Positions 24,929 to 44,116 of a DNA stretch of 64,000 bases are shown here, one piece after another. A program made the translations under genes and the position numbers. Within the stretch, counting starts at the first letter, position 1. The number at the start of each line of letters is the position of its first letter. This DNA comes from Planctomycetota bacterium (GTDB taxonomy: Bacteria; Planctomycetota; Phycisphaerae; Phycisphaerales; SM1A02), in NCBI GenBank assembly GCA_022568135.1, contig JADFFQ010000011.1, positions 1 to 64,000 of the forward strand, in the 5' to 3' direction. The notes beneath the pieces are model-generated. The model was not told the origin of the DNA. It saw nothing but the letters and a program-made list of their open reading frames with translations, and ran no database searches.

Positions 24929-25326
24929 GCAAGAGCTTGGGGCAGGGGAGTAGAGGTGTCGCACGGCCGGGGTCGCCGAGCCGTCACGGGGGATCGGCTC
25001 GACCGCTTCGAGCCGGCTCGGCGGCTGGAACGCAGGCCGCCGGGGCTTTCGATAGGGACCGGCACCTCCAAGGCGGTCTCTGACAGCAGCCGGCCCGATC
25101 CAGGTAGGCCCGGGCGCGCCGCGGCCCTTCGCCCGCACCGGCCGGTCGGCGATCTTTTTCCATGAAATTCTCAAGATTCACTTGCGTCGGCATTGTTTTT
25201 GTGCTAGGGGGCAGCTAGAGTAGGGCAATCGGCGGCAGCAACTGTAACTGTATCTAAACCAACTGACTCCCTCACCGGGACTGCGGTCTGCGGCATGCTT
25301 GGCGTGTCGGCCTTCGAGGTGACTTG
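24929..25326. other. rplL-rpoB intergenic region
   Basis: About 398 bp, very GC-rich in its first two thirds, with several potential stems but no clear intrinsic terminator. The last 135 bp turn AT-richer and hold the probable rpoB promoter. No gene recognised. Confidence 0.55.
25193..25221 (+). promoter_or_regulatory. Probable rpoB promoter
   Basis: TTGTTT (25193-25198), a 17-base spacer and TAGAGT (25216-25221), about 105 bp before rpoB. It sits in the only AT-richer patch of the gap, implying that rpoBC can be transcribed separately from rplKAJL. Confidence 0.5.
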
Positions 25327-28300
25327 ATGGTTGCAAAGAACGTGCGCGATTTTGCCAAGCGCGGCGATGCGATCGCCGTACCCACGCTCACCCAGGTGCA
25401 GCACGACTCGTACGAACGCTTCCTTCAACTCAACCAGCCGGTAGACAAGCGCAACCCCAAGTCGGGGTTGGAGGCGTTGCTGCGCGAGGTATTCCCGATC
25501 CAGTCCTATGACGGGACGATGCGGCTGGAGTACCTCTATTACAAGCTCGACGACGCCCGCTACACGCCGGATGAATGCCGAGAGCTTCGCCTGACCTACG
25601 GCATGCCCTTCCGAATCGGGGTGCGCCTGGTGCGTGAAGGCGTGTCGGAGATTCCCGAGGAAGAGATCTATCTTGGTGAGATCCCCATCATGATGGGCGG
25701 TGGCGAGTTCATCGTCAACGGCGCCGAGCGGGTGATCGTCAGCCAACTTCACCGCTCACCGGGGGTGGACTTCGGCATCAGTTCAGCCGTTGGTGACCGT
25801 CCGCTGCACTCGGCCCGCATCATTCCTGAGCGCGGCTCCTGGATCGAGCTGGAGGTCACCAAGAAGGATGTGCTGACGATGCGGATCGATCAGTCCACGA
25901 AGATCGCCGCCACCACGTTCCTGCGCGCTCTGGACGAGCAATACAGCACCATGGACGCGTTGATCGGGTTGTTCTATGACATTCAGGAGATCAAGCTCGA
26001 GAAGCTCCGTCCTGAGCATTACACGGCCGAGCCGATCATCGATGAGGATGGGGTTGAAGTACGCCGCGCGGGGGAACAGATCGGTGATGCGATTGAGAAG
26101 ATCCTCGCCCAGAGCTGGACCACCGTGCGCGTCATCCAAGACCCCGGCGATCCGCTGCTGCTCAATACGCTCGCGGAGGAGAAGCTTGATTTCCTCGGGG
26201 AGGTGACGGAACACGAAGCGGCGCTGTTGAAGATTTACGGTCGGCTGCGGCCTGGGAACCCCCCTCAGGTCGAGAAGGCACGTTCCTTGTTCCACGAAAA
26301 GTTCTTCGACGAGAATCGCTATCGGCTAGGCAAAGTCGGCCGGTTCCGTATCAACCGCAAATTCGAAATGGACGTCCCGGAGGACGTGATGCACATCCGT
26401 GCCGAGGACTTCCTCGCGGTGATCCGATACATCATGGATTTGCGGGCGAAGCGCAACAAGGCCCACGTGGACGACATCGATCACCTTGGCAACCGGCGGC
26501 TCCGCACCCTCGACGAACTGGCTATTGAGGAGATGCGCAAGGGCTCCCTCAAGCTGCGGCGGACCGTTCAAGAACGCATGAGCATCAAGGATCCGGATGA
26601 GCTGAGCAAGATCGCGGACCTCGTCAACTCGAAATCCATTAGTAGTGCCATTGAGTTCTTCTTCGGCCGCAGCGAGCTGTCCCAGGTGGTCGATCAGACG
26701 AACCCGCTTTCGATGTTGGTGCACGAGCGCCGCCTGTCGGCGTTAGGCCCGGGCGGGCTGAACCGAAAGCGGGCCGGCTTCGAGGTCCGCGACGTCCACA
26801 TCTCACACTATGGGCGCATCTGTCCAATCGAAACGCCCGAGGGCACCAACATCGGGCTGATCGCATCACTCGGCATCTATAGCAAAATTGACCAGTACGG
26901 CTTCTTGCTCACGCCGTATCGCAAGGTCAAGAAGAGCAAGGTGACTGGCGAGGTGGAGTACCTGCGGGCGGACCAGGAGATGAAGGCGATACTCGCGACT
27001 TCTGACGTGCTCGATGAGTCCGGTCGGATTACCCAGCGGCAGGTCCTGGCCCGAGTCAGCGGCGACCTGGCTCAGGTCGATGCGTCAGACGTGCAATACG
27101 TGGACATCTCACCGAAGCAGACGGTCGGGGTGTCGGCGGCGCTGATCCCGTTCCTCGAACATGACGATGCCAACCGCGCGCTGATGGGGTCCAACATGCA
27201 GCGGCAGGCGGTACCGGTGATCAAACCCGATCCCCCGATCGTCGCCACCGGCATGGAGAGGATCGTGGGCGAGTACTCGGGCATGATCGTCAACGCCAAG
27301 AGAGGAGGGACCGTCACCTACGTTGATGCGGATCGCATCGTTATCGACAACGCTGATGAATACGAGCTTCGCAAGTTCGTCGGTCTCAACGAACGCACGT
27401 GCCAGAATCAGAAGCCGATCGTCCGACTGGGACAGAAGGTCAAGGAAGGGCAAATCCTCGCCGACGGCGCGTCTACCATACACGGCCAGCTGGCCATCGG
27501 CAAGAACATTCTGGTCGCGTTCAGTACCTTTGACGGCTACAACTTCGAGGATGCGATCGTCATCTCCGAGCGTTTGCTCAAGGAGGACGTGTTCACCTCG
27601 ATTCACATTGAGAGCTTCGATGTCGAAGTTCGCGAGACGAAGCTGGGGCGAGAAGAGTTCACCCGCGACATTCCCAACGTCTCGGAGAAGATGCTGTCGA
27701 ACCTCGATGAGAACGGCGTGATCCGCATCGGGGCCCGCGTAAACCCCGGCGACATCCTCGTCGGCAAGGTCAGCCCCAAGAGCAAATCGGAGCTGACGCC
27801 AGAGGAAAAACTGCTGCATGCGATCTTCGGCCGAGCCGGCGAGGATGTGAAGAACGACTCCCTGGAAGTTCCCGCAGGCACGGCCGGAATGGTCATCGGC
27901 GCCAAGCGGTTCAGTCGCCGAATGCACCTCTCCGACGAACAGAAAAGGGAGGTCAAGAAGAATACGGCCAAGTACGAGCGTCAGATGAACGCCAAGGCCG
28001 TCACGTTGTTCCGGCAAATGGTCCGCCAAATGAACGAGGTGCTGGGTACGGAGATGGTGGATCCCTCGACGCGACAGAAGGTCGGGGCGTCAGATATCCC
28101 CGAGGTCATCCTGGAACAGATCGAGACCTTTGATTCGAAGTGGATCAAGGGGAACAAGGATGCCAAGGCCCAGGCGGAGAGAATTCGCGATCAATTCTGG
28201 CCCCGAATCATCGCCATTGAACAGGAGCGGGAACGCAAGCTCGCGCACATGAAGCGCGGTGATGAATTGCCATCGGGTGTGCTGGAGATGGTCAAAGTCT

Positions 28301-29112
28301 ACCTGGCCACCAAGCGTCAACTGGCCGTCGGCGACAAGATGGCCGGACGGCATGGTAATAAGGGCGTCATCTCCCGCATTGTTCCTGTGGAGGACATGCC
28401 GTTCCTCGAGGACGGGACGCCGGTGGATCTGCTGCTGAATCCCCTCGGCGTGCCGTCGCGGATGAATGTTGGCCAAATCCTTGAGACGCACCTGGGTTGG
28501 GCGGCGGCGGTATTGGGTTTTCAGGCGGTTACTCCTGTCTTCGACGGAGCAACTGAAGAGGAGGTGCTCGCCAGCATCGACGAGGCGAACGACCACGTCC
28601 AACAGCGCCTCGTACGGTTCGAGGAGACGGGCGAGGCCCCCGGCGACTCCCGCGAACTGCTTGTTCGCCTGCCCTATGGCGGCAAGGTGCAGCTTTACGA
28701 CGGGCGAACGGGCGAGCCATTTCATCAGAAGACAACCGTCGGGTATCTGTACATGCTCAAGCTTCACCATCTGGTGGATGACAAGATCCACGCCCGGGCC
28801 ACCGGGCCGTACAGCCTGATTACCCAGCAACCGCTTGGCGGCAAGGCGAGAACCGGAGGCCAGCGCTTCGGCGAGATGGAAGTCTGGGCCTTGGAAGGCT
28901 ACGGCGCGGCCTACGTCCTCCAGGAGCTGCTCACCGTCAAGAGCGACGACGTGGAAGGACGCACCAAAATCTACGACTCAATGGTCAAGGGCATCAACAT
29001 ACTCGAAGCCGGCATGCCGGTCGTCTTTGACGTGCTGTGTTATGAAATCAAAGGCCTCGGTCTGAACATCACGCTGGAGAAACAGCAACTTGAAGGGGTA
29101 AGTCTCTTGTAA
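25327..29112 (+). CDS. rpoB: DNA-directed RNA polymerase beta subunit
   Basis: A 1261-residue core RNA polymerase subunit. Recognised blocks: fork/rifampicin region [18 protein letters not shown]...[26 protein letters not shown], the [14 protein letters not shown] block, [13 protein letters not shown], and the C-terminal [22 protein letters not shown] 25327 is preceded by GAGGTGA. In the rifampicin cluster, several side positions differ from E. coli (F514V, M515V, N518T, E523M, I524L, T525V, K527E in E. coli numbering), while S512, Q513, D516, H526, R529 and S531 are kept. It is followed by rpoC after 116 bp. Confidence 0.98.
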
Positions 29113-29228
29113 TCAAGCTTTCAGCGGTCTGCCGTCGGCGATTGGCTCGATTGCCGGCGACAGGCGGATGATGGCTGCTGCCCACATTCTTGAACCGCAC
29201 GTTGAGCGCTAGGAGTTGAGTGCTACCA

Positions 29229-33647
<4,419 letters not shown>

Positions 33648-33783
33648 CGATCCTCTGATAAGGGCGTCCGGGGTGCCGCTCAGGGCGAGCACGCTGGCCC
33701 ACGCCATGAGGCCGGAGGCCCCGACGGAAGGAAATCTCTGTTTGGGAATTGAATAGTTCTCGGTTTCCGGTAGGATTTTGGGG

Positions 33784-33789
33784 TATGAT
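33784..33789 (+). promoter_or_regulatory. Possible -10 element upstream of the Cys-rich subtilase
   Basis: TATGAT lies 112 bp before the ATG in an AT-richer patch. No good -35 is found at 16-18 bases, so this is weak. Confidence 0.3.
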
Positions 33790-33901
33790 GAGGGCGCGGA
33801 TGCATCCCTGCGCGCACTGAGGCCGAACCTGTATTAAGGCAAATCCCACTGCATCCAACTCCGACGACGCCCGCCGGATTCGACCAAATGGAGGCTGACG
33901 C

Positions 33902-36900
33902 ATGTTGCTGAAACGAGCCCTCTTCATTGGTTTGTTTGTGTTTGCCGCCATGGCACTGGCGGGACATGACCCGCAGCCTACGGCCAGGAAACCGGTGCCC
34001 GATCGGCCGAGTGCCAAGAACGTCCCGTCACCTAGCGGCAGGGATCTCAGCCACATCAATCGGCAAACCGGGCTGGCCCAGGGAAGGGTCGAGCGTGAAC
34101 AGGCCGGCGATCTCATTCCGCGAAAGCCGCTACGAAAGCCCGCCGAGGTCATCAAGCCGCCGGTGACGAGCGGAAAGCTCATCGTCAAGTTCAGGGATGA
34201 GGTCAAGGCCCGGTCACGAGATGAGGGGCGAGTCGTCTCGCTGGCGGGGGTGGATACCACAGATGTCGAGCAGCTGGCAGCTGATTTGGGCGTGAGGTTC
34301 CTCCCAGCGCTGCATCGGGACGATGCCAAACTGGCCGAGCTTGAGCAGCGAGCGGCGGTCCACAGCGGCAAGGCTCAGCCCGACTTGGCGGGGATCATGT
34401 ACGTACAGGGGCCACCCGACGCCCTCGAGCAGGCGGCGGCGACCCTCCACGCGATGGACATCGTCGAGTACGTCGAGTTTGAGCCACAGTGGGAGCTGGA
34501 CCTCGGACTCGGGACTCTCGGGGCGTGCTGCATGCCGGACGGATCGTGCGCGGAGATGACCGAGCGCTCCTGCCTTGCGGCTGGCGGCTCCTACTTGGGC
34601 GGCGGCACCCTCTGCCCCGATCCCCCCGACCCATGCGGCGTCTGCGCCGGCAGCTGCTTCGATCCGGCGGGCAACGGCACCCCCGGCTGCTTCAACGCGT
34701 TAAATCCGGACTGCTGCAGCACCGTGTGCGACCTCATACCCGAAACGGCCTACTGCTGTACCGATGAGTGGGATGCGTTCTGTGCCGAAGTGGCTGCGCA
34801 GTTCTGCGGCCTTGCCTGCGGCCATCCCGCAGCCGGAAGCTGCTTCGAGTCCAATGGCAACCCCTATTGCAACATCGAAGGCTGTTGCGAAACCGTCTGT
34901 GAAATCGAGCCCCTGTGCTGCGATGCGGACGAGCAATGGGATGACCTCTGCGCCGCCATCGCGGGGCTGTTCTGTGAAGGGTGCAACGCCAACTCGGGAA
35001 CCTGTTACGAACCCAACGGTACGCCGGGATGCGATGATCCGGCTTGCTGTGATCTGGTCTGCGAGATCGATCCGATGTGCTGCGACGAGGAGTGGGACAC
35101 CAACTGCGCCCTGATCGCTCAATTCGGGTGCGAGTCGCCGACCGGGTGCCCAAGCGTGGGGAGTTGTCTAGACGCGCACCCAACTCCGGGCTGTGAGAAC
35201 GGGGCCTGCTGCGAGCTGGTGTGCATAGCCGAACCCCTCTGCTGCGACTTCGCGTGGGATGAGGGGTGCGTTGACTTGGCCGCGAGCCTCTGCCAATCAG
35301 ATGACACGGGCCCGACACCAGACTTCACACCGCTGCAAGGTTACCGTAGCCTCGATACGGGTGGGTTTGATCTCGAACCAACACCCTTTGATCCCTATGC
35401 CGGGCTGTACGGCCTGGGTGCCTTTGTCTTTGAGGTGCTTGGCGTCGGCGAGCAGAACCAGGCCCGAGGCGCGACCATCAACGTCGGCGTGGTCGAGTTC
35501 CAGGCCACCATCAACCACGAAGACCTCGACGTGAACCTGGATCCGGAGTTGGAGCCCGATGATCTGTTCTTCTTCTCGCCGGCCCACGGCACAGCGACCC
35601 TCGGGGAGATCGTGGGCTTGGAAAACGGGTTCGGCGTTACCGGTATCGCCCCGGACGCTCAAGGATGGTTCTTCCCGATCGAGGCCATTAGTACCGGCGG
35701 ACGGGCGTTCGCGGCCTGGACCAGCGCCCTGATGACATTCGGGCCCGGCGACGTTCTCTCAGCATCGTACGGACCGGTGGGCTGCGGCACGCTGGCCAGC
35801 GGTGAAACCATGTGGATTTTGTTCCGGCAGGCCAGCGACCTGGGAATCACCGTGTGTCTCTCCGCCGGCAACGACTGCTGCAATCTGGAGACCGCCCCAC
35901 AGTTCGACGGCGAAGACAGCGGGGTGATCATCGTCGGAGCCGGATTCGCCGGCCCGCCCTGGTGCCGGCTTGGCTTTAGCAACTTTCACGAGTCGCCCAA
36001 CTCAGCCAATGTCGATGAGCAGGTGCACGTGCAGGCTTGGGGCACGGCCATCACCACTCTGGGCTACGGCGGACTGTTCCTCGGTGACGCAGATCCCAAC
36101 AGGGCCTACACCGCCGGCTTCGGCGGGACGAGCAGCGCCGCCCCCATGATCGCCGGGCTGGTGGCCAATCTGCAAGGACTGGCCAAACAGTTCTATGGCA
36201 TCGCCCTGGCGCCGGAGCAAATCCGCAGCATCATCACGGGATGTCCCGGCTCCGCCTTCCCGCAATGCCTCGTTCCATTCTGTGATGAGGATTTGCTGCC
36301 GGGCGAGCCCGACATCGATCCACCGACTCCCTGCGTCGGCGACCTCGATCCGGAAGGCGACCCCAACGTCATCGGCCCGTTCCCCAGGGCGGTGGAGTGC
36401 GGGCTGAGCGTCATCACCAGCAACTGGTTTGACTCAGCGCCGTTGATCGATGACATCACGATCCTTCGCGGCAACCTGGTCTACGGCAACGTCTTCTCGA
36501 TCAAGGCATCTGACAACAACTACCTCGTCATCGAGTCTGAGTACACCACCCCCAGCCACGGCGGAGGCGGCGGGCCCGAGAATCCGCAATACATCAGCTT
36601 CGGCGAGGTCACCGACGTGCTCGTCACCGCCCATGCGGACCTCCCCGGCGCGAGCGCCTTGCTGGTCGAAGTTGAGTCCCACACAAGCAGTGGCACGAGC
36701 ATCATGTTCGTCGAGTTGTGGGATTGGGGCTGGAATCGCTACGCCTTCGTCGGTTTCGCCGGGCTCAGGGGGCTGATCGATGGGCTGGATCCCCTGTTCC
36801 AATTCCCCGTCGATGGTGCGTCCCGATACATCAACCAATCGGACCAGCGGGTTCTCATTCGGGTTTGGACCCTCGCGGTAGGCGGAAACTCCCCGCCCGG

Positions 36901-36997
36901 CTTCGGGCTGCCCCCCAACGACTACCGGGTGCACCATGATTTGATCAATCTGGAGCTATTCGAGGACTTCGGCGATATCTTTGAACCTAATCCGTAA
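33902..36997 (+). CDS. Large secreted subtilase-like protein with Cys-rich repeats; catalytic Asp replaced by Glu
   Basis: A 1031-residue exported protein. Signal peptide (about 1-20, ALFIGLFVFAAMALAG), then a linker and an inhibitor-I9-like segment (SGKLIVKFRDEV...). Cys-rich section about 208-465: one GACCMPDGSC unit, then four units of the pattern GSC...GxPxC..CC..VC...CC..(E)W...C. S8 fold at about 515-780: His562 in SPAHGTAT, oxyanion Asn in SAGNDC, Ser744 in FGGTSSAAP. The triad Asp position holds Glu532 (VGVVEFQATINHEDL), so activity is uncertain. The last about 250 residues are unrecognised. A strong terminator follows. Confidence 0.85.
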   Translation: MLLKRALFIGLFVFAAMALAGHDPQPTARKPVPDRPSAKNVPSPSGRDLSHINRQTGLAQGRVEREQAGDLIPRKPLRKPAEVIKPPVTSGKLIVKFRDEVKARSRDEGRVVSLAGVDTTDVEQLAADLGVRFLPALHRDDAKLAELEQRAAVHSGKAQPDLAGIMYVQGPPDALEQAAATLHAMDIVEYVEFEPQWELDLGLGTLGACCMPDGSCAEMTERSCLAAGGSYLGGGTLCPDPPDPCGVCAGSCFDPAGNGTPGCFNALNPDCCSTVCDLIPETAYCCTDEWDAFCAEVAAQFCGLACGHPAAGSCFESNGNPYCNIEGCCETVCEIEPLCCDADEQWDDLCAAIAGLFCEGCNANSGTCYEPNGTPGCDDPACCDLVCEIDPMCCDEEWDTNCALIAQFGCESPTGCPSVGSCLDAHPTPGCENGACCELVCIAEPLCCDFAWDEGCVDLAASLCQSDDTGPTPDFTPLQGYRSLDTGGFDLEPTPFDPYAGLYGLGAFVFEVLGVGEQNQARGATINVGVVEFQATINHEDLDVNLDPELEPDDLFFFSPAHGTATLGEIVGLENGFGVTGIAPDAQGWFFPIEAISTGGRAFAAWTSALMTFGPGDVLSASYGPVGCGTLASGETMWILFRQASDLGITVCLSAGNDCCNLETAPQFDGEDSGVIIVGAGFAGPPWCRLGFSNFHESPNSANVDEQVHVQAWGTAITTLGYGGLFLGDADPNRAYTAGFGGTSSAAPMIAGLVANLQGLAKQFYGIALAPEQIRSIITGCPGSAFPQCLVPFCDEDLLPGEPDIDPPTPCVGDLDPEGDPNVIGPFPRAVECGLSVITSNWFDSAPLIDDITILRGNLVYGNVFSIKASDNNYLVIESEYTTPSHGGGGGPENPQYISFGEVTDVLVTAHADLPGASALLVEVESHTSSGTSIMFVELWDWGWNRYAFVGFAGLRGLIDGLDPLFQFPVDGASRYINQSDQRVLIRVWTLAVGGNSPPGFGLPPNDYRVHHDLINLELFEDFGDIFEPNP

Positions 36998-37039
36998 TGA
37001 TCATCGCCTCGATCGCTTGCCGTTGATAAAGACCCCAAG

Positions 37040-37067
37040 GCTCCCTCGCAAGAGAGGGAGCTTTTTT
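37040..37067 (+). terminator. Rho-independent terminator after the Cys-rich subtilase
   Basis: GCTCCCTC (37040-37047), loop GCAAGA, GAGGGAGC (37054-37061), then six T. Perfect 8-bp stem, 43 bp past the stop codon. It is the clearest intrinsic terminator in the window. Confidence 0.92.
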
Positions 37068-42420: not shown

Positions 42421-42550
42421 GCCGTAGCTCACCCCAGACCATGCAAGAATGCCTCTCTCCGAAGCACCGCATGCCGATGCGGGGCTCAGCACAGAAAACT
42501 CTTCCTCCCACCCGAGAGGCGCGGTATCCTTTAGCTGCAGAGGTCTTTTC

Positions 42551-44116
42551 ATGGCTCACCACAACAACCCAGCGGTCATCCGACAGGGATCAACAATCAG
42601 CCCATCCCTCGTGTTGGCAGGATCGCTACTGACCGCTTCCTTGCTGCCAGGCGCCCCAGCCTGGGGGCAGTGCGCCGCCAACGAGCTGGCCAAGCTCACC
42701 GCCTCCGACGCCGCGCTGGAGGACCGGTTCGGCCATTCCGTTTCCATCAGCGGCGGCGCAGTAGTGATTGGAGCATATCTCGACGACGATGCAGGCATTC
42801 GCTCCGGCTCGGCGTATGTGTTCGAAAAGCCGCGGGACGGCTGGGTGGACATGACCGAAACCGCCAAGCTCACTGCCTCCGACGCCGCAGAGTTTCAGTG
42901 GTTCGGCCGTTCGGTTTCCATCAGCGGGGACTTTGTGGTGGTAAGCGGGGCGGGCTCAGTCTACGTATTCGAAAAGCCTTCAGGCGGCTGGGTGAACATG
43001 ACCGAAACGGCGAAGCTCACCGCCTCCGACGGCGTGTCCTTTTTCTCCAGGTTCGGCGAATATGTTTCCATTAGCGGCGATGTGGTGCTGATCGGGGCGC
43101 GGTCTGACGACCATGCGGGATGGAACTCCGGCTCGGCGTATGTGTTCAAAAAGCCCAAGGGCGGCTGGGTGGACATGACCGAGACCGCGAAGCTCACCGC
43201 CTCCGACGCCGCCGCGGGCGACCAGTTCGGCGCTTCCGTTTCCTTGAGCGGTGACGTCGCCCTGATCGGGGCGTTTCACCAGCAGACAGGTAAGTCCGAC
43301 CATGACGCCGGTTGGGTCTACGTCTTCCGCTTCGACGGTACCAACTGGGTCGAGGAAGGCAAGCTCACCCCATCCGATCCTGCGGCGAACAACCAGTTCG
43401 GCAATTCCGTTGCCATCAGCGGCGACGTGGCACTCATCGGGGACTGGCGCGACGACGATGGGTGTCCAGCCAACACCGACTGCTTCTCCGGTTCGGCGTA
43501 CGTCTATCGGTTCAACGGGACCAGTTGGATCGAAGAAGCCAAGCTCACCGCCTCTGACGCCACCTCGGGTGACGCCTTCGGGGAGTCTGTTTCCGTCAGC
43601 GGCGACATGGCCCTGATTGGGGCGGTTTGGGATGACGAAGGGCTATACGACACCGGCTCGGCGTACCTGTTTCGATTCGACGGGACAAACTGGATCGAAG
43701 AGGCCAAGCTCACCGCGTCCGACCCCGCGTGGGCTGACCGGTTCGGCAAATCTGTTTCCACCAGCGGTGATGTAGCTGTGATTGGGGCGTTTCAACCTTT
43801 CCCTCCCCCCTACCCCCATGGTCCCGGCAAAGCGTACGTGTTCGGCGGCCTGGCCGACTGCAACGACAATGGCGAACTTGATCTGTGCGACATCACCGAT
43901 GGTACATCTCAAGACGCCGATGCCAACGGCATTCCGGATGAGTGCGAGTGCCCCTGGGACCTCGATGGCAACAGCACCGTCGGCATCCTCGATTTGCTCG
44001 CTCTGTTGGCAGCCTGGGGGACCAACCCCGGCGGGCCGCCGGACTTCGACGGCGACGGGACGGTCGGCATCCTTGACTTGCTCATACTCCTCACCAACTG
44101 GGGCCCGTGCCCCTGA
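42551..44116 (+). CDS. Secreted seven-bladed FG-GAP-like propeller protein with dockerin-like C-terminal pair
   Basis: A 521-residue exported protein of unknown function. Signal peptide at about 10-38 (ends APAWG). Seven repeats of about 55-65 residues begin KLT(A/P)SD..., contain FG.SVSISGD.A.IGA..DD and often end SGSAYVFRFDGTNW; this suggests a seven-bladed beta-propeller, as in FG-GAP/integrin-alpha-like surface proteins. A linker (DCNDNGELDLCDITDGTS...) leads to two dockerin-like loops (DLDGNSTVGILDLL, DFDGDGTVGILDLL) between CPWD and WGPCP. The module nearly matches the end of the protease at 20516-22300. AGAGGT precedes ATG 42551. Confidence 0.85.
   Translation: MAHHNNPAVIRQGSTISPSLVLAGSLLTASLLPGAPAWGQCAANELAKLTASDAALEDRFGHSVSISGGAVVIGAYLDDDAGIRSGSAYVFEKPRDGWVDMTETAKLTASDAAEFQWFGRSVSISGDFVVVSGAGSVYVFEKPSGGWVNMTETAKLTASDGVSFFSRFGEYVSISGDVVLIGARSDDHAGWNSGSAYVFKKPKGGWVDMTETAKLTASDAAAGDQFGASVSLSGDVALIGAFHQQTGKSDHDAGWVYVFRFDGTNWVEEGKLTPSDPAANNQFGNSVAISGDVALIGDWRDDDGCPANTDCFSGSAYVYRFNGTSWIEEAKLTASDATSGDAFGESVSVSGDMALIGAVWDDEGLYDTGSAYLFRFDGTNWIEEAKLTASDPAWADRFGKSVSTSGDVAVIGAFQPFPPPYPHGPGKAYVFGGLADCNDNGELDLCDITDGTSQDADANGIPDECECPWDLDGNSTVGILDLLALLAAWGTNPGGPPDFDGDGTVGILDLLILLTNWGPCP

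Follow-up and report, generated by a model that had tools for sequence, protein, structure and literature searches.

A secreted planctomycete subtilase with glutamate at the catalytic aspartate position, a probable active member of the E-H-S family

The 64,000-nucleotide stretch of Planctomycetota contig JADFFQ010000011.1 analyzed here (the window) carries an open reading frame with an ATG start (33902..36997) for a 1,031-residue secreted subtilase, in which Glu stands where the catalytic Asp is expected. Does this Glu mark a domain that has lost its activity, or is it the acid of a working Glu-His-Ser (E-H-S) triad? We hold it about 85% probable that the window protein is exported and works as a serine endopeptidase of the E-H-S family, with Glu532 as the triad acid, and is not a pseudoenzyme.

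The protein comprises, in order, a signal-peptide-like stretch, a propeptide-like region, a Cys-rich stretch (a GACC module and four CC repeats), a Peptidase_S8 domain and a C-terminal domain, and all features of this gene given below lie on the plus strand. Residues 1 to 21 (33902..33964) form a putative signal peptide, judged from the sequence MLLKRALFIGLFVFAAMALAG alone. The propeptide-like region (residues 85 to 198, 34154..34495) resembles the N-terminal part of other E-type subtilases, the stronger second matches to which covered residues ~65 to 200 with 36 to 48% identity; a weak Fervidolysin_NPro-like match stayed below threshold (E = 0.006). The Cys-rich GACCxPDGxC module, recognized in the sequence, spans residues 207 to 246 (34520..34639). 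The catalytic domain (residues 526 to 778, 35477..36235) was delimited by its predicted fold and by the match to PF00082 (E = 4.6e-14; 52.8 bits against a cut-off of 21.8), which places it in the peptidase S8/subtilase family, and in NCBIfam just a weak partial match to mycosin, far below the cut-off, was obtained. The C-terminal domain (residues 836 to 1031, 36407..36994) matched no Pfam family. Forty bases past the stop codon lies a terminator-like hairpin with a T tail (37037..37064), hairpin hits being at chance level (3 versus a mean of 2.4).

The position of the Glu was established by alignment and by modeling. With phmmer, VGVVEFQATINHEDL aligned with VAVIDSGIDSSHPDL of solved subtilisins, placing Glu532 (codon GAG, 35495..35497) on Asp32 with the same spacing to the His of HEDL/HPDL as in these enzymes; residue 532 is thus Glu and not the catalytic Asp of a classical D-H-S subtilase. 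The catalytic His562 (35585..35587) and the nucleophile Ser744 (36131..36133) were located by alignments, and Asn657 (35870..35872), at the oxyanion-hole Asn155 position, by the joint alignment. An AlphaFold2 model of residues 500 to 800, built from a 55-row alignment, had a mean pLDDT of 84.4 and a pTM of 0.87, and the ten-residue blocks containing Glu532, His562, Asn657 and Ser744 reached mean pLDDT values of 93 to 95. Asp32 ends the first strand in subtilisin, and Glu532 likewise ends the first strand of the model (model residues 28 to 33); His562 begins a helix and Ser744 lies near the start of a long one (model residues 244 to 266). The predicted placement of Glu532, His562 and Ser744 is that of subtilisin. 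The top Foldseek match of the model was selenosubtilisin (E = 1.3e-15), and VIA-align against subtilisin Carlsberg (1cse_E), one of the chains ranked highest by Foldseek, gave a Z score of 28.2 and 2.9 Å over 247 residues, so that AlphaFold2, Foldseek and VIA-align agree on the subtilisin fold.

The strand before the site reads INVGVVE and holds no Asp, and upstream of His562 there is none able to replace Asp32: leaving the N-terminal linker aside, every Asp from residue 500 to His562 follows Glu532, D541 being the first. The sequence-only reading had reported a Glu in place of the catalytic Asp, with His562 and Ser744 in good context, and all three assignments held under alignment and in the model layout. 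It had also allowed for another Asp falling into place on a structural model; instead, Glu itself holds the position in the alignment and in the model secondary structure. Among the matches listed (60 of 155), the family profile recognized no solved E-type structure; the best listed structures were named subtilisins and their relatives, and the three displayed alignments have Asp at the site.

Conservation of the Glu was then followed outward from the closest relatives, a comparison that the sequence-only reading had proposed. A set of 30 rows, taken from the best loci of the order scan (match in 165 of 301 genomes) with the window and L011, had Glu in all 28 rows reaching the site, window included, and His, Asn and Ser each in 28 of the 28 rows reaching the respective site. 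Chance or a sequencing error behind Glu532 is ruled out by this constancy. The phylum scan gave a match in 44 of 294 genomes; among 31 aligned phylum rows (window included) Glu was present in 29, while L038 ends before the site and L005, a paralogue that the window's genome itself encodes, is of the Asp type. Among 347 relatives from the named-genome scan, the 80 best were carried forward. The joint set, with 120 rows, had Glu in 112, Asp in six and a gap in two; the Asp rows comprise five further subtilases encoded in the window's genome and a second frame of L047. The wider group, spanning Planctomycetota, Bacteroidota, Verrucomicrobiota, Myxococcota, Lysobacter and actinomycetes, had Glu in 107 of 107 scorable rows; in L127 and L130 an insertion follows straight after the Glu, and the larger alignment places an N of this insertion in the Glu column. 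The joint alignment that also contains D-types has 163 rows; Asn is present in all 163, and His and Ser in 162 each, the remaining row having a gap in each case. Fourteen plasmid relatives were detected, and the four opened (Haloferax, Serratia, Nostoc and Paenibacillus) all had Glu; the viral scan gave one relative. Glu532 is real and fixed, and it is most likely catalytic.

A Glu that disables the triad, leaving the domain with its CC repeats as a secreted binder, is an improbable explanation. Loss of Asp32 cripples subtilisin, and no member of the sub-branch to which the window protein belongs is assayed in the open-licence papers found, both of which count for such a pseudoprotease. Against it, the clade shows neither loss nor drift of catalytic residues, with Glu, His, Asn and Ser fixed; a binder would not need the His, Asn and Ser that are kept in close relatives and in the wider family, and the propeptide region is retained as well. 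A related E-H-S enzyme is, moreover, active. SprP (PA1242) of Pseudomonas aeruginosa, assigned to the E-H-S family with the predicted triad E262, H299 and S499, acted on skim milk protein and Suc-AAPF-pNA, and the S499A variant lost halo formation, which counts for an active E-H-S enzyme here; in the available part of that paper, Ser was the residue mutated and the role of Glu was given by prediction (PMC3937732). Compared by description only, SprP and the window protein share a signal peptide, an N-terminal domain and an S8 domain with a Glu/His/Ser triad; SprP has 590 residues and no CC repeats are mentioned for it in the available text (PMC3937732), versus 1,031 residues and CC repeats in the window protein. 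The inactive binder or shifted mechanism offered by the sequence-only reading therefore gained no support, given the joint fixation of the four residues across a large subfamily and the activity of SprP.

Siezen, Renckens and Boekhorst are said to have named the E-H-S family of prokaryotic subtilases in 2007. The window protein resembles that subset in being a subtilase with Glu at the catalytic Asp position and with the catalytic His and Ser kept, and it is assigned to the family by these features. The Glu-for-Asp replacement in prokaryotic subtilases is credited to Siezen, Renckens and Boekhorst 2007 (PMC2827410, available part), so that Glu in subtilases is already described in kind and the window protein joins a known family. 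The available parts of PMC9549277 and PMC2605481 held nothing further on E-H-S. In the open-licence papers found, there was no mention of the window's sub-branch and nothing relevant on planctomycete Cys-rich subtilases, a D32E subtilisin, or mosaic or allelic secreted subtilases. The unusual Glu is thus no defect; it characterizes a subfamily that is widespread and probably active, and annotation of its members as dead or as D-H-S enzymes should therefore be avoided. Beyond the known chemistry, further interest lies in the sub-branch, the CC repeats and an apparent cassette exchange.

The sub-branch was compared in 26 D-type, 108 other E-type and 28 window-branch rows, with subtilisin position numbers (His67, Ser125, Gly127, Pro201, Met222 and His226) that we assigned by motif and take to be equivalent. 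Both E groups depart from the D-types at several of these positions. At the His67 position, Ala565 in the window protein (35594..35596), Ala or Ser occurred in nearly all E-type rows (102 other E-type and 28 window-branch), against His in 20 of 26 D-type rows. The Pro201 position held Trp in 97 other E-type and 28 window-branch rows and Pro in 25 of 25 D-type rows; the His226 position was mostly Ile, with others, in both E groups and His in 22 of 25 D-type rows; the Met222 position was Ser, Ala or Gly in both E groups and Met in 18 of 25 D-type rows. The window protein accordingly differs from D-H-S subtilisins by Asp32 to Glu, His67 to Ala, Met222 to Ser, Pro201 to Trp and the loss of His226, and it shares with subtilisin Carlsberg, BPN' and other D-H-S enzymes the fold, the His, the Ser, the oxyanion Asn and the S-x-G substrate strand. 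The replacement of His67 by Ala or Ser and of Pro201 by Trp, together with the loss of His226, would be expected if the site had been remodeled around a working Glu, and supports an active Glu triad. As a hypothesis, loss of His67 and His226 might make room for the longer Glu. Residue 745 (36134-36136), at the Met222 position, is Ser in the window protein, and E-type rows have Ser, Ala or Gly there throughout; the position is the one engineered in oxidation-stable subtilisins.

The two E groups differ from each other around the Glu. Two residues before it, Asp was found in 98 other E-type rows, whereas the window branch has mainly Val or Ile, and D-types have Val, Ile, Leu or Thr. The Ser125 position, Ser622 in the window protein (35765..35767), was Glu in 105 of 108 other E-type rows, Ser in 28 of 28 window-branch rows and Ser in 25 of 26 D-type rows. 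At the Gly127 position, other E-type rows had Gln (90) or His (15 of 108), window-branch rows Gly (28 of 28) and D-type rows Gly (17 of 26) or Gln (6). The branch of the window thus keeps the D-H-S-like substrate strand S-x-G where other E-type rows mostly have E-x-[QH], and the additional acids that most E-H-S proteins carry are absent from it. This bears on whether another acid, such as Asp541 of HEDL or an acid on the Ser125 strand, could serve His562 and leave the Glu a structural part. The extra acids at the -2 and Ser125 positions of most E-type proteins speak for such an arrangement, but the window's branch has neither and yet keeps the Glu, and D541 is the ordinary conserved Asp of HxDL, present in D-type rows too; we regard it as very improbable.

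Still smaller is the chance of a sedolisin-like mechanism with Glu as the general base. Sedolisins (S53) have a subtilisin-like fold and a catalytic Glu, and that common Glu is what suggests the comparison; their triad is Glu/Asp/Ser without His, and an Asp stands in the oxyanion hole. The window protein instead has His562 and Asn657, both present in all rows reaching them, its Glu lies at a strand end and not on the helix that carries the sedolisin Glu, and PF00082 was the only Pfam family that the protease matched.

Under the preferred reading of an active E-H-S endopeptidase, we infer protease activity, hydrogen bonding by the Glu, propeptide cleavage and a role of the repeats, as follows. 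Glu532 would replace Asp32 as the triad acid, orienting and polarizing His562, which would activate Ser744, and Asn657 would form the oxyanion hole. The N-terminal propeptide would aid folding and inhibit the enzyme until cleaved off, and the Cys-rich repeats and C-terminal domain may be attachment or targeting modules.

The relation of the groups was examined in trees. With the D/E-motif columns removed, a tree of 102 rows had D-type, window-branch and other E-type rows each on one side of a branch. In a more careful tree of 63 rows, from which the marker columns 565, 622-624, 713, 745 and 749 were also removed, support was 100/100 for the D-types, 100/99 for the window branch and 53/85 for the other E-types. 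If the root lies among the D-types, these one-sided groups would imply a single origin of the Glu, shared with the rest of the family. The S-x-G strand of the window branch is likely the older state if this branch is sister to the other E-types. With its simpler Glu triad, the branch lends itself to asking which features a subtilisin requires to function with Glu.

A further difference from the E-H-S subset is the Cys-rich insert between propeptide and protease. The four CC-rich repeats noted in the sequence-only reading are real by repeat alignment (34646..34819, 34835..34984, 34997..35143 and 35159..35305, together within 34646-35305). The unit has ~49 residues, with G, C, P, C, CC, V, C, P, CC, WD, C, A and C invariant in the four copies. 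The window's genome contains 22 matches on 11 open frames, protease included, with frames distinguished by their contig and length. At E values up to 1e-8, the window's genome was the only one of 119 sampled across the phylum to have the repeat, but 96 of 121 in the family of the window have it; it is family-restricted, peculiar to one planctomycete family. Pfam holds no family for it (best E = 0.39 for the Cys-rich stretch), and no convincing relative was found among PDB sequences (best E = 0.54). A low-confidence model of 49 residues from the four-row alignment (pLDDT 77.3, pTM 0.58) suggests, with modest confidence, three short helices, and had no Foldseek match in the PDB. A service in binding or attachment is our guess.

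The protease gene lies 3' of rpoB and rpoC (25324-33647), from which it is separated by the junction 33648-33901, and faces minus-strand genes for an HATPase_c_2 protein, a STAS protein, a secretin and the carbamoyl-phosphate synthase small chain. In the rpoC-protease loci compared (L178, L179, L180, L182 and L183), a protease was also directly downstream of rpoC in G564, G554, G544, G298 and apparently G574, that is, in five of six genomes examined; the sixth, G251, had no rpoC match in the stretch examined.

Three loci of the same genus as the window, L178 (G564), L141 (G546) and L189 (G580), were used for a closer comparison. The G564 locus has the same gene order, and its flanking genes showed 89 to 98.5% protein identity to those of the window and 87.5 to 97% identity at four-fold degenerate sites, against 57.9% and 57.8%, respectively, for the protease. 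Along the protease gene, four-fold identity to G564 starts at 93% over the 15 sites of the signal region, is 63% over 19 sites in residues 34 to 90, falls to 40 to 42% in propeptide, repeats, linker and protease, and rises again to 56% over 9 sites in residues 801 to 835 and 88% over the 76 sites of the C-terminal domain. G546 agrees with G564 over 3.1 kb at 89%, and its blastn match to the window stops at 34041; the G580 stretch examined matches both the window and G564 from 36445 on, where the match ends. The divergent segment, with propeptide, repeats and catalytic domain, thus covers 34041..36445 (ends approximate) and leaves the C-terminal domain outside. Since synonymous sites diverge together with the protein, the pattern points to replacement by a distant allele and not to fast protein evolution alone, and the segment resembles a cassette that congeners have exchanged within a syntenic gene downstream of rpoC. 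Chimeric assembly is a possible source of the pattern, the genomes compared being fragmented assemblies, but the frame, open through both joints, argues against it.

A wider proposal that joins both lines is tentative, and we hold it to be somewhat doubtful as a whole. The window's branch would be a natural minimal Asp-to-Glu triad (Glu with the shared Ala67 and Trp201, no His226, and otherwise a D-H-S substrate strand), maybe preserving the first Asp-to-Glu step, and in one planctomycete family the protease, its propeptide and the family-restricted CC repeats would form a cassette for recombination downstream of rpoC; bounded by a signal peptide and a C-terminal domain that both stay fixed, it would be exchanged as one block and diversify a secreted protease. 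Such an exchange of an entire protease cassette at a single locus would give a testable example of how Planctomycetota diversify a secreted enzyme. Elsewhere in the window, 42449-44116 encodes a 555-residue protein with seven FG-GAP_2 stretches, which adjoins a PriA-like helicase gene.
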